Assembly: GCA_028279705.1 (NCBI GenBank)
Contig: JANQNF010000058.1
Span: forward strand, 1 to 64,000
Direction of reading: 5' to 3'
DNA length: 64,000 nt
From: an archaeon
Lineage (GTDB): Archaea; Aenigmatarchaeota; Aenigmatarchaeia; QMZP01; JAFGSV01
Shown: positions 347 through 6,613 of the stretch, piece after piece
Position numbering within the stretch: position 1 is the stretch's first letter
Layout of the letters: each line of letters begins with the position of its first letter
The notes under the pieces: model-generated
Told to the model about the DNA's origin: nothing
The model's database searches: none
The model's input: only the letters and a program-made list of their open reading frames with translations
Translations under genes and position numbers: made by a program

Positions 347-1570
347 ATGTCACAGGTATCACTTAATAACATTTTCAATACATACACAAACGGTGTTAGC
401 GTTTTTCGTAATAAATCCTCCCTTTCTTGTGATTTCACACCAGACAACATTCCCCACAGGGGCAGCCAGATAGAAAACATCGCCCATATGCTTGCACCGG
501 TCCTTCGCGGTGAAAAACCGTCAAACGTTTTCATCTACGGAAAAACCGGTACAGGGAAAAGCCTGTGTATAAAGAAAGTTACGGACTCGCTTGAGGAGAG
601 CGCGGAGGAAAATGGAAGGAAGGTCAAGGTAATATATCTCAACTGTAAGATGGGAAAAGTCGCAGACACAGAGTACAGGCTGCTTGCACAGATACTCTCG
701 TTCTTCGGTGAGGACGTTCCATTCACCGGACTTCCAACCAACACGCTTTACAAGAAACTGTACGACAGGCTAGGAAAAACAGGAGGAAACGTCATACTGG
801 TACTCGATGAAATAGACGCCCTTCTCGAGAAAATAGGAGACGAGATACTTTACAATATAACGAGGATAAACCAGGACGTACCAAACATACAGATAACCAT
901 TGTAGGGATATCCAACAAACCCACGTTCATAGATACACTGGACCCTCGCATAAAATCCTCACTTTCCGAGGAAGAGATGGTGTTTCCCCCATATAACGCG
1001 ACCGAGATAAAGGACATTTTGGAGGAACGAGTAAAAACAGCCTTTAACGAAGGTACAGTCGATTACGGTGCAATAACAAAGTGTTCGGCTCTTGCTGCGC
1101 AGGAAAACGGCGATGCACGCAAGGCCCTTGATCTACTGAGGGTCGCTGCAGAGCTTTGTGAAAGGGCTTCGTGCAAGCAGGTCAATGAAACTTTTGTCAA
1201 CAAGGCACAGGAAAAACTGGACAAGGACAGGATAATGGAACTCATAAGGGCACAGCCAAAGCATTCAAAGCTTGTACTTCTTTCTATGTTGAGGCTTTAC
1301 AGGGACGGTAGTGGAGGCGTGCAGACTGGCGACGTTTATACCATGTATGAGAAGATGGCTGCCGAGAACGGGTTAAAGACGCTTACGCAGAGAAGGATTT
1401 CTGATCTCATTTCCGAACTTGACATGATGGGCGTAATCAACGCATCAGTCGTGTCAAAGGGCAGATATGGCAGGACGCGCACGATAAACATACAGCTTAA
1501 CGAGAACATAGTTTCCCTAATGTCAAAAACGTTAGGAAGAGAGTTCCCTGAAGCATTTATTAATTTTTGA
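347..1570 (+). CDS. orc1: Orc1/Cdc6 replication initiator
   Basis: This is the origin-binding AAA+ ATPase that recognises ORBs and recruits MCM. Of 407 residues, Walker A (GKTGTGKS) is at about 65-72, Walker B (VLDEIDAL) at about 152-159 and a sensor-1-like VGISNK at about 194. A winged-helix DNA-binding domain fills the last ~100 residues (LTQRRISDLISELDMMGVI). The length is normal for the family. The gene directly follows the ORB cluster and heads an operon with the DP1 homologue (next ATG 14 bases after the stop) and the TctA-like gene. The ATG at 347 gives a complete N-terminus. Function is secure from family knowledge; whether this is the only initiator in the genome cannot be seen here. 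Confidence 0.97.
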   Translation: MSQVSLNNIFNTYTNGVSVFRNKSSLSCDFTPDNIPHRGSQIENIAHMLAPVLRGEKPSNVFIYGKTGTGKSLCIKKVTDSLEESAEENGRKVKVIYLNCKMGKVADTEYRLLAQILSFFGEDVPFTGLPTNTLYKKLYDRLGKTGGNVILVLDEIDALLEKIGDEILYNITRINQDVPNIQITIVGISNKPTFIDTLDPRIKSSLSEEEMVFPPYNATEIKDILEERVKTAFNEGTVDYGAITKCSALAAQENGDARKALDLLRVAAELCERASCKQVNETFVNKAQEKLDKDRIMELIRAQPKHSKLVLLSMLRLYRDGSGGVQTGDVYTMYEKMAAENGLKTLTQRRISDLISELDMMGVINASVVSKGRYGRTRTINIQLNENIVSLMSKTLGREFPEAFINF

Positions 1571-1584
1571 GACATTTCTTGTTC

Positions 1585-2487
1585 ATGGAAAAACACACAC
1601 TTGTCAAAGAGTTGCTAAGTAAGGGCATAATGGTCAGCCCCCAGGAACTTGAAAGCATGAAGGACGGCAATATCGTCCCACCGCTTGACAGAAATGTGCA
1701 AAAATCAACACGCGAGAGCAAGGTTCTATGCAAGCTGGACACAACTTTGCAACCGAAGAAGATTACCATAGACGACGCTGTGCGTGAAAACTGCCAGATG
1801 TACGAAAAATTAAAAAAAGTCCTCCTAAGGAAGGTAGAAGCGGTTTCTATCAATAACATCGGAAGAAGCAGCACAAAAAACTGCATACTGGGACTCGTAC
1901 GCGAGATCACCCAGAACGGCTTTGTGCTTGAGGACACCACGGGTAACATCCACGTCAAGACCACAGAAAAGCCAGAACAGGGCGATGTGGTAGCTGTCAG
2001 GGGATGGCTGAGGGAAAGTGTTTTCTTTGCAGAAGAGGTAGTTTATCCAGACATTCCAATGGCAAGGGAAGTCAGTACCATAGACTGCCTGATAACCCTG
2101 TCAGACCGTTCAGACCATCTGCAAAAATCGGACATTTCAATATCACCGGATACGCTCATGGTCGATGGCGACGAGAAAAGACTTCCAAACCCGGCCTGGA
2201 TATCTCTTGAACGTGACGGGAAAAGCGCAGTAATAGTTGTGTACAGCTGCAAGGGCAAGATAGAAAAAGAAACGGCCCTTCACTGGCTGAAAAGAAGATA
2301 CGTCGGACCGAGCAACGGTCCGGTACCTGACAACGCCCGCGTTCTTGAGAAAGTCCCAGATATTCTATGGATAGTGAGCGAAAACGAGCAGTGGACGTTC
2401 AATTACAAAGGAGTTACTGTAATTTCCTTTGGCAGGGGCAAAAGCGCACTTGTTGACATGAAAACGAGAAAAGTTGAGATAATGTAG
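1585..2487 (+). CDS. Degenerate PolD small subunit (DP1-like), phosphoesterase motifs lost
   Basis: This is a 300-residue homologue of the archaeal PolD small subunit, which is normally about 500-600 residues with an OB fold and a calcineurin-type nuclease domain. The OB region is clear (about 85-165, ending AEEVVYPDIPMA), as is the family C-terminal stretch (TALHWLKRRYVGP, then VPDI). Motif I (ISDIHVGS) appears reduced to LSDRSDH. The block normally holding GDxxD and GNHD is absent, and the final GHxH is replaced by SENEQ. It therefore looks nuclease-dead, as eukaryotic polymerase B subunits are, and may be a scaffold. The track start at 1567 is a TTG overlapping the orc1 stop; ATG 1585 gives a typical N-terminus. 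Whether DP2 exists elsewhere is unknown. Confidence 0.8.
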   Translation: MEKHTLVKELLSKGIMVSPQELESMKDGNIVPPLDRNVQKSTRESKVLCKLDTTLQPKKITIDDAVRENCQMYEKLKKVLLRKVEAVSINNIGRSSTKNCILGLVREITQNGFVLEDTTGNIHVKTTEKPEQGDVVAVRGWLRESVFFAEEVVYPDIPMAREVSTIDCLITLSDRSDHLQKSDISISPDTLMVDGDEKRLPNPAWISLERDGKSAVIVVYSCKGKIEKETALHWLKRRYVGPSNGPVPDNARVLEKVPDILWIVSENEQWTFNYKGVTVISFGRGKSALVDMKTRKVEIM

Positions 2488-3964: not shown

Positions 3965-6613
3965 TCAGTGCGTTATTACGGTTTCTGCGGGCCCCTTTTC
4001 TGATGAAAAAAGGACAGAACCCCCGCAATCGCACTTCCCGATAAGTGGTGCCATCTTATACGACTTATTACATTTACTGCAAAGAATACCGTTAACTTCG
4101 TTCAAGTTGACGGTCATTTTGGCCTCGTTTTGTTTCCGGTGGTGATTGTTTATTGCTTCTGCAAGGCCTATCTGCTTTCCAAGGCCGAGAAGCTCCTCCT
4201 TGGTAACCCCGATTGCATTGAATATACGTTCCAGCGGAGGAAGGAGCTGGTTATCTATGTAATACCTTGAATCAAGCTGCAGACCCTTTTCCTGGACATA
4301 ACCCGGGTCCTCGGCCCTTTTTGAGAGCAGGTCCATACCCTTGACTATGACATAGCCTATCCTGTCACCAGTACCGGGAATTTCCATTTCTCCCCGCTGT
4401 TTCATTTTCTTTATTACCTCGACATGTGGCTGTACCCCGGCATATGCCTCGGGCTTCTTTGTTATGGTCTTTGTTATCGTGAGCTTATCGATTCCAATCT
4501 TTCCTTCAAGCAGATCTTTTACGACTTCCTTGAAATGGGTCACTGCCTCTTTTACGTTGTTCTTCTTCAGAATTATCTCTATTATGTCCTTCATGGTATC
4601 CCCTGTGAGTTCACACCAGTCACGCCTGACCGTTTCTATGCCTTTCATCACCATGCCTTCTTTCCATTCACCTTCCTTTCCACGTTCCATCGACCATCCC
4701 ATGTACCTTTTTTTCGTCAGGGGGAGGAACCGCTTGAAAATCTTCTCGAATTCAAGTTCCATGACGCCTGGGAGCTTTTCGGTCATCTTCCTTGAAACTT
4801 CCTTTCCTATCTTTTCTGCATCCTCGAGCTTGTCCGAAGGTATCTTTATCATGACAGAATCTGTATCACCATAGACCACCTCGTAGCCGAATTCCTTTTC
4901 CATAGCGTTTACCGTGTCGTGAATGGTCTGCCTTCCGAGAGCAGTGACAGAACTTGCTATGTCTATGCTGTGTATCTTTGCCCGGTGATAGCCGAAATAT
5001 CCATAAAACGCATTAGCCATTACCTTGATTGCGAGCTGTTTCATGTCAAGCGCCTTTTTCAGCTTCTCATCCCCGCTTTTCATCTGCTTTTTGACTTTCG
5101 TCCTCTCTTTCATGAGGTTTTCGAGTATCCTCGGTATTATGCCATGCCTTACCTCTTTTTTCACGAATCGTGAACCGTTTGGAGTGGTAACCGAGTCAAC
5201 GTTCCCGTCACCAAGAACAAGCGTCGTCGGGCAAATATTGAACGTTCTTATGAGTGACGGATACATTGACTTGAAGTCCATCACCAGTACCATTTCATGC
5301 AGACCTTTCTTCGGCTCTATCACAAAACCTCCCTTGAGATCCTTGCTTTCATCATCGTTTCCATTTTCGGACACATTGCCATTGCTGCCCTTGCTTGGAA
5401 TTACGTATCCTTCCTTGTTGAATTCCCTCAGGAAGTAGTTTTCTATCCTCTGTGTTTCGCCCCCTTCCAGAATGTCGTTTACAAGCGATCCTGATATCTT
5501 TGCAAGAGCCACATACTTATCAAGCAGATTCAGCTTCAGAAGAAGCTTCATTGCAAGCCTGCTGTCCTGAAGACAGTAATCTGCGAGCGTCTTGTACTGC
5601 TCCTGGCTGCCGTTCCAGAACTTTCCGATCTCGGACTTCTTAACGTCCTTTTTCTCCTCACCGATGAGCTCCTTTGCCACGAAGTCCAGGCCGTACCTTT
5701 TCAGGTTCCACCCTTTTTTTATCATGCTGAAAGAGTCCGCGATCAATCTACCGGTTATGCTGATCCTGTGCCTTCCTGCGAATAGATCGTCCCTTACACG
5801 TTTATCCTTGCATCTTCCAAAAGCCGGGCGCACCTTCGTTTTCTCCATCCTCTTCAGGATGTATGGGAGATCGTATCCCACTATGTTAAACCCGGACAAT
5901 ACATCCGAGTCGTGTTCCTTTATTACCTCCACGAACTTTTCAAGCATTTCCTTCTCGCTTGAAAACGAATCTATTCCGTCGCCCGGCCTTGTTGACAGTA
6001 ACATGGATTTCATGCCCCTGTATTCCGGTTCAAAGACAAGTGAAATCATGGCAACCGGATCACTTTCAGGATCAGGCATCATACCTTCTGTGGCACCAAC
6101 CGTTTCTATGTCGAATGCAAGATACCTCAGGGGGGCATCCTCGTACTTTTCGATGACATCGAATTTCTTTATCTGTATCATCTTCTGGGCAGATACGCTG
6201 TCAGTTGAGATGTTGCTTCCATCTTTTGCGCTGACCCATTTCATCCCCCCGACATTGGAATCGTTCATCCACCTGTACTTGAAGAGCACGTCAGCTTCGT
6301 ACGTGTCGACACCCATGGATTTTAGCGCTTCCCTGGTTTCCACGGTCTTTCCGGGATCTCTTAGGGTTATCTTGTACACTTCTATTGGCTCCTGGTAGCC
6401 TACGGGAAGCGTTCTTTTTGTTTTTTCTATCTTTACAACGAACGGGTTGCCTTCAAGCTTTCCTTCGATGTCTTCTCCCACAGCGTAGAAGTATGGAAGA
6501 AAACCTTCATAGAAACCGCATACGCTCTTGCCTTCGGCGTCCTTTCCAAACAGCCTCAGTACGGGCTTGTCATTGACCATCTTGTAGTCGACGTCTAGTA
6601 CCTGAAATTCCAT
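3965..6613 (-). CDS. polB: Family B DNA polymerase
   Basis: This is a replicative or repair DNA polymerase with 3'-5' proofreading, 882 residues. Exo I (FDIETVG) is at about 167-173, Exo II is in FNIVGYDLPYI, and Exo III is YCLQDSRLAMKLL. Polymerase motif A is DFKSMYPSLI near 441-450, motif B is KVMANAFYGYFGY near 520-530, and motif C is YGDTDSVMI near 577-585. All catalytic carboxylates are present. The C-terminus carries a zinc-ribbon-like cysteine set (CSKCNKS…CDCGG). The N-terminal domain resembles the uracil-sensing pocket domain of archaeal PolB, but I cannot confirm the pocket. The gene is convergent to the orc1 operon and divergent from NAC. With DP1 degenerate, this may carry much of the replicative load; that is inference. 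Confidence 0.97.
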   Translation of the reverse strand: MEFQVLDVDYKMVNDKPVLRLFGKDAEGKSVCGFYEGFLPYFYAVGEDIEGKLEGNPFVVKIEKTKRTLPVGYQEPIEVYKITLRDPGKTVETREALKSMGVDTYEADVLFKYRWMNDSNVGGMKWVSAKDGSNISTDSVSAQKMIQIKKFDVIEKYEDAPLRYLAFDIETVGATEGMMPDPESDPVAMISLVFEPEYRGMKSMLLSTRPGDGIDSFSSEKEMLEKFVEVIKEHDSDVLSGFNIVGYDLPYILKRMEKTKVRPAFGRCKDKRVRDDLFAGRHRISITGRLIADSFSMIKKGWNLKRYGLDFVAKELIGEEKKDVKKSEIGKFWNGSQEQYKTLADYCLQDSRLAMKLLLKLNLLDKYVALAKISGSLVNDILEGGETQRIENYFLREFNKEGYVIPSKGSNGNVSENGNDDESKDLKGGFVIEPKKGLHEMVLVMDFKSMYPSLIRTFNICPTTLVLGDGNVDSVTTPNGSRFVKKEVRHGIIPRILENLMKERTKVKKQMKSGDEKLKKALDMKQLAIKVMANAFYGYFGYHRAKIHSIDIASSVTALGRQTIHDTVNAMEKEFGYEVVYGDTDSVMIKIPSDKLEDAEKIGKEVSRKMTEKLPGVMELEFEKIFKRFLPLTKKRYMGWSMERGKEGEWKEGMVMKGIETVRRDWCELTGDTMKDIIEIILKKNNVKEAVTHFKEVVKDLLEGKIGIDKLTITKTITKKPEAYAGVQPHVEVIKKMKQRGEMEIPGTGDRIGYVIVKGMDLLSKRAEDPGYVQEKGLQLDSRYYIDNQLLPPLERIFNAIGVTKEELLGLGKQIGLAEAINNHHRKQNEAKMTVNLNEVNGILCSKCNKSYKMAPLIGKCDCGGSVLFSSEKGPAETVITH

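Follow-up and report, generated by a model that had tools for sequence, protein, structure and literature searches.

The window, a stretch of 64,000 nucleotides from an aenigmatarchaeal genome, encodes a 300-residue homologue of DP1, the small subunit of PolD, that very likely serves as a non-catalytic, structural B-subunit of a nearby family B DNA polymerase (PolB) that replaced DP2. The complex of the two proteins and the inactivity of DP1 are both predicted. The features expected of a dead B-subunit occur together: the DP1 lacks nuclease motifs, the PolB ends in a DP2-type zinc C-terminal domain (CTD), and DP2 has been lost. The key change of partner is the loss of DP2 combined with a PolB that carries the Zn-III module of DP2. 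The relevant features of the window are as follows.

347–1570, plus strand: orc1/cdc6 initiator gene, directly upstream of DP1 (TIGR02928, 3e-128; adjacency in related loci)
1585–2487, plus strand: short homologue of DP1 with 300 aa, predicted to be a non-catalytic B-subunit (NF003118, profile against the PDB, fold, absence of motifs)
1837–2049, plus strand: OB-fold domain, residues 85–155 (conserved columns, match to the RPA OB fold)
2077–2484, plus strand: C-terminal half of the PDE domain, residues 165–300 (strands and helix of the model, signature)
2101–2136, plus strand: approximate site of the missing block with motifs II and III, GDxxD and GNHD (alignment with full-length class homologues and PDB DP1)
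2377–2388, plus strand: SENE in place of the metal-binding GHxH, motif V (alignment)
3965–6613, minus strand: family B DNA polymerase, 882 aa, predicted catalytic partner (Pfam domains, motif check)
3968–4102, minus strand: C-terminal CxxC...CxC zinc module, homologous to Zn-III of DP2, predicted DP1-docking element (profile against the PDB)

The DP1 reading frame begins with an ATG 14 bp past the cdc6 stop codon. NF003118, the NCBIfam model for small subunits of PolD, matches the first half of the protein, which contains the OB fold, with an E value of 3e-14; a Pfam scan of the protein gave no match above the cut-off. A profile made of 33 short homologues from the window's order, with full-length relatives left out, retrieves DP1 structures from the PDB at 1e-15. 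The match is made up of the OB region and, separately, the C-terminal LKRRH...PD...YKGV stretch. The structure prediction called for in the preliminary description was run with AlphaFold and yielded a model with a mean pLDDT of 90.3. It superposes best on P. abyssi DP1, over 249 residues at Z 20.2 and an rmsd of 3.5; the B-subunits of Pol epsilon, delta, and alpha come next, with Z values of 16–18. Residues 85–154 of the model also resemble the OB folds of RPA (Z about 11). Family model, profile, and fold thus agree with the original assignment to the PolD small subunit, with an OB fold and the C-terminal signature, and leave no reasonable doubt that the protein is homologous to DP1.

An N-terminal region and the OB fold are followed in the protein by the C-terminal half of a calcineurin-like PDE domain homologous to that of DP1. 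The LKRR and PDIxW...NYKGV signature is conserved in the remaining PDE half. The DP1 proteins of the order diverge fast and share about 30% identity.

An active DP1 nuclease is defined by five metal-binding motifs, SDxH, GDxxD, GNHD/E, H, and GHxH. None of the five was found at the aligned positions of the window DP1. The block containing GDxxD and GNHD is deleted relative to full-length DP1s, as had been described. FHSGHLHTVCLENYK of the window DP1 aligns to LWIVSENEQWTFNYK of a full-length DP1 from the class, and the alignment places SENE where the latter has GHLH, in keeping with the earlier reading of SENEQ for the last motif. The proposed pairing of SDRSDH with SDIHVGS is not meaningful, because the stretch is unconserved in the order, and the alignment with full-length class DP1s reveals no recognizable motif I. 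Judged by its sequence and model, the window DP1 probably lacks nuclease activity.

The window PolB matches the Pfam domains DNA_pol_B (2e-113) and DNA_pol_B_exo1 (2e-33). Its exonuclease motifs (DIE, NxxxYD, and YxxxD) and polymerase motifs (DFxSMYPS, KxxxNAxYG, and YGDTDS) are intact, and the window indeed pairs a DP1 devoid of nuclease motifs with a complete PolB. The C-terminal zinc module is present in 50 of 50 PolB orthologues. A profile of the module alone, searched against the whole PDB, finds DP2 at 1.5e-11, while the next match, which is unrelated, scores 0.013. The match falls at the Zn-III positions of DP2 (about 1120–1162 in P. abyssi). A fold search with the PolB C-terminus is weak and unspecific: its matches are zinc ribbons of a generic kind, and DP2 scores a Z of 2.1. 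The groove between the OB and PDE domains of DP1 accommodates Zn-III in P. abyssi PolD, and in P. horikoshii a Zn-III peptide of 20 residues is sufficient to bind DP1 with nanomolar affinity (PMC6355029). The window PolB has KMAP in place of the DP1-contacting RRxP of DP2, and the helices flanking the Zn-III module of DP2 have no counterpart in it. Those helices also contact the PDE domain of DP1 (PMC6355029); the interface of PolB with DP1 would therefore have to be smaller. Judged by its features, namely full length, a single C-terminal DP2-like zinc motif, and an origin in Aenigmarchaeota, the window PolB probably belongs to the B6-aenigma1 group.

The genome also encodes a second PolB of 820 aa (G000:C35:8310-10694, minus strand; L099:472-2931), which is 31% identical to the first. 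Its exonuclease and polymerase motifs are intact, it lacks a zinc tail, and similar second PolBs occur in most kin. The zinc-tailed PolB of genome G051 (G051:C67, L078:288-4238, minus strand) is 1317 aa long because it contains an intein with a LAGLIDADG domain. Several other PolBs of the class have frames of 1320–1400 aa, suggesting more inteins.

The genome, a draft assembled from metagenomic data, comprises 88 contigs and 1.9 Mb, is 92% complete, and has a low estimated contamination of 0.35%. It is about twice as large as those of most class relatives, which mostly span 0.5–1.3 Mb (about 0.9 Mb). The search for DP2 proposed in the preliminary description found no DP2 (PF03833) in it. Among 156 genomes of the class, Candidatus Aenigmatarchaeota, DP1 is present in 144, including 39 of 39 high-quality ones. 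DP2 was found in ten, all members of one family, f10, and not in the other 146. A CTD of the zinc-tailed PolB type was not found in f10 beyond weak matches. DP2 and the zinc-tailed PolB are mutually exclusive across the 156 genomes. The window's genome harbors no second DP1; a 373-aa protein (G000:C83) with a weak match to the DP1 profile was rejected, because its motifs are phosphatase-like, an OB region is missing, and Pfam gives no match for it. One genome assembled as a single contig, G034, encodes two short DP1s (G034:C1, 706015–706941 and 458646–459611), each about 34–35% identical to the window DP1, and just one of the two adjoins a zinc-tailed PolB.

The short DP1 gene follows cdc6 throughout the window's order, and the cdc6-DP1 linkage is also kept in many other loci of the class. 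DP1 and the zinc-tailed PolB lie on one contig in 109 of the 120 genomes in which both were found. Outside the order, PolB follows directly after DP1 in tandem (76/82). Within the order, the two genes are convergent and less than 6.5 kb apart in 25 of 27 cases, the median distance being 2.1 kb; a TctA-family gene separates them in the window. The placement of cdc6 beside DP1 is of old standing in euryarchaea, and the P. abyssi genome groups cdc6 with both DP1 and DP2 (PMC2643942). Given this grouping and the tandem DP1-PolB order of the class, PolB often appears to occupy the place expected for DP2. A search for origin repeats upstream of cdc6 returned one imperfect pair of 15-mers only. The two near-identical copies (GTCTCCACATGAAAC) lie at 217–258 of the window, 27 bp apart and about 90 bp upstream of cdc6, and are possibly origin-related, possibly a chance occurrence.

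The nuclease motifs were counted in 95 aligned DP1s, five from f10, 54 from other families outside the order, and 36 from the order. DP1s of f10 are full length and carry all five motifs in 5/5 intein-free copies. Among the 54 from other families outside the order, GNH[D/E] is kept in none, the other four motifs are kept in 11, and no motif is kept in 25. In the window's order, 34 of 36 DP1s have no motif, and motifs I, III, and V are absent from all 36. The universal loss outside f10 is that of GNH[D/E]. Mapped on the PolB tree, which was built by a quick method, is unrooted, and leaves out f10 because that family has no zinc-tailed PolB, the motif-less state requires five changes, at least three of them on well-supported branches. 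Full nuclease activity of DP1 is the archaeal norm. Given this norm and the several changes on the tree, motif loss seems to have recurred in separate branches. It is reasonably probable that a single class keeps the whole path, from an active DP1 with DP2, through four-motif DP1s without GNH[D/E], to a minimal half-domain scaffold, the last steps being repeated after a PolB with its own exonuclease replaced DP2. One full-length f10 DP1 (G058:C21, L085:2-2224, minus strand) contains an in-frame intein with Hint and LAGLIDADG domains, inserted exactly in PDE motif II (GGDLC|DG) of the exonuclease active site.

A probable course of events can be proposed. In the ancestor of most Aenigmatarchaeota, a PolB with a copy of the DP1-docking Zn-III module of DP2 would have replaced DP2. 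This PolB would have brought its own 3'-5' exonuclease, so that the nuclease of DP1 may have become redundant and then decayed. The window's order would have gone furthest by removing the N-terminal half of the PDE domain. The remaining OB fold and C-terminal sheet would form a surface where the zinc module can dock, and DP1 may have been kept for what the module holds and for whatever else DP1 connects to. Against a physical DP1-PolB complex speak KMAP in place of RRxP, the absence of the flanking helices, the unspecific fold match of the zinc module, and the convergent arrangement of the two genes in the window's own order, where they form no operon.

The cdc6 gene, which immediately precedes DP1 in the whole order and at many class loci, would also suit a DP1 that is no longer part of the polymerase and whose main role is that of a cofactor of origins or Cdc6, or of an OB-fold binder of single-stranded DNA, and a link between DP1 and Cdc6 at origins was proposed earlier (PMC2643942). 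However, linkage to cdc6 is an ancestral trait of full DP1, and such a role, which appears unlikely, leaves unexplained both the DP2-type docking module of PolB and the linkage of the DP1 and PolB genes. The missing PDE half and the fast divergence (about 30% identity within the order) could also be signs of a decaying pseudogene or functionless relic. This is very improbable for a gene with a stop-free frame in nearly all genomes, present in all 39 high-quality genomes of the class, whose OB and C-terminal signature columns are conserved and whose product is confidently modeled as a compact fold.

Residual or altered nuclease activity, whether of the half domain that remains or of partners, is scarcely to be expected. 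SDxH, GDxxD, H, and GHxH are kept by some relatives in the class, and partial sites might still bind metal, but the corresponding positions of the window DP1 carry none of these residues. The preliminary description had named two circumstances that could overturn its reading, a second DP1 elsewhere in the genome, which was not found, and an assembly error. The assembly is a draft metagenome of 88 contigs and 1.9 Mb, as opposed to about 0.9 Mb in most kin, and an assembly or binning artefact might have removed the middle of a normal gene. The chance of this is negligible, since an identical length, cdc6-adjacent place, and set of gaps recur in dozens of independent genomes, including CP070804 (Candidatus Aenigmatarchaeota), where the locus lies on a single 742-kb contig. 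A structural B-subunit of the zinc-tailed PolB remains the favored role of the short DP1.

The window DP1 resembles P. abyssi DP1 (5ihe, 6t8h) in the order of OB and PDE domains, the C-terminal signature, and the adjacency to cdc6. However, it is about 300 aa long compared with 619 aa, and it lacks the motif II–III block and the catalytic residues, in a genome without DP2. The eukaryotic B-subunits (DPOE2 of Pol epsilon, p50 of Pol delta, and p70 of Pol alpha) share the same fold at Z 16–18 and are likewise dead partners of a PolB with a zinc CTD, as proposed here for the window DP1. They are larger, with chains of about 410–570 residues, and keep the whole PDE fold, whereas the 300-residue window DP1 keeps half. 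In Heimdallarchaeota B3 and LC3, as in the window's genome, DP1 coexists with a zinc-tailed PolB; their PolB belongs to another group, B10, whose CTD did not cluster with DP2, and the B3 DP1 may still be active, unlike what is predicted for the window DP1 (Kazlauskas et al. 2020, main text; PMC7544198). The closest known system is the Aenigma_GB_GCA_002789635-like DP1 with its B6-aenigma1 PolB, described in the same text. It shares the phylum, the absence of DP2, a PolB with a single DP2-like zinc motif, and a DP1 regarded as inactive.

According to the main text of that study, Aenigmarchaeota possess an inactivated DP1 and a B6 PolB with a DP2-like zinc CTD, DP2 is generally absent, and eukaryotic B-subunits might stem from ancestors of Aenigmarchaeota (PMC7544198). 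The swap of DP2 for PolB and the inactive DP1 have therefore been known since 2020. The preliminary description had suggested an independent loss. The loss is real and lineage-wide, together with that of DP2; it need not be independent of the eukaryotic loss, given the ancestry considered in the same study. The main text of PMC7544198 reports no size reduction, gene order, or intermediate states, and no later treatment was found among open, as distinct from subscription, papers. New are the deletion of half of the PDE domain, a compact structural model of high confidence, the tandem arrangement of the DP1 and PolB genes, the mutually exclusive distribution of DP2 and zinc-tailed PolB in 156 genomes, and the intermediates.

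Eukaryotic replicative polymerases contain dead B-subunits derived from archaeal DP1. To our knowledge, the loss of their nuclease has been inferred only from distant endpoints. Aenigmatarchaeota provide living intermediates of this loss within one class, and the locus does bear, as first suggested, on how B-subunits became scaffolds. The window DP1 is a minimal, compact candidate B-subunit whose predicted complex with the zinc-tailed PolB can be made and its structure solved. In Aenigmatarchaeota it becomes testable whether the polymerase swap preceded the nuclease loss or followed it. If true, the graded path would be a natural replay of B-subunits turning into scaffolds, carried beyond the extent reached in eukaryotes.
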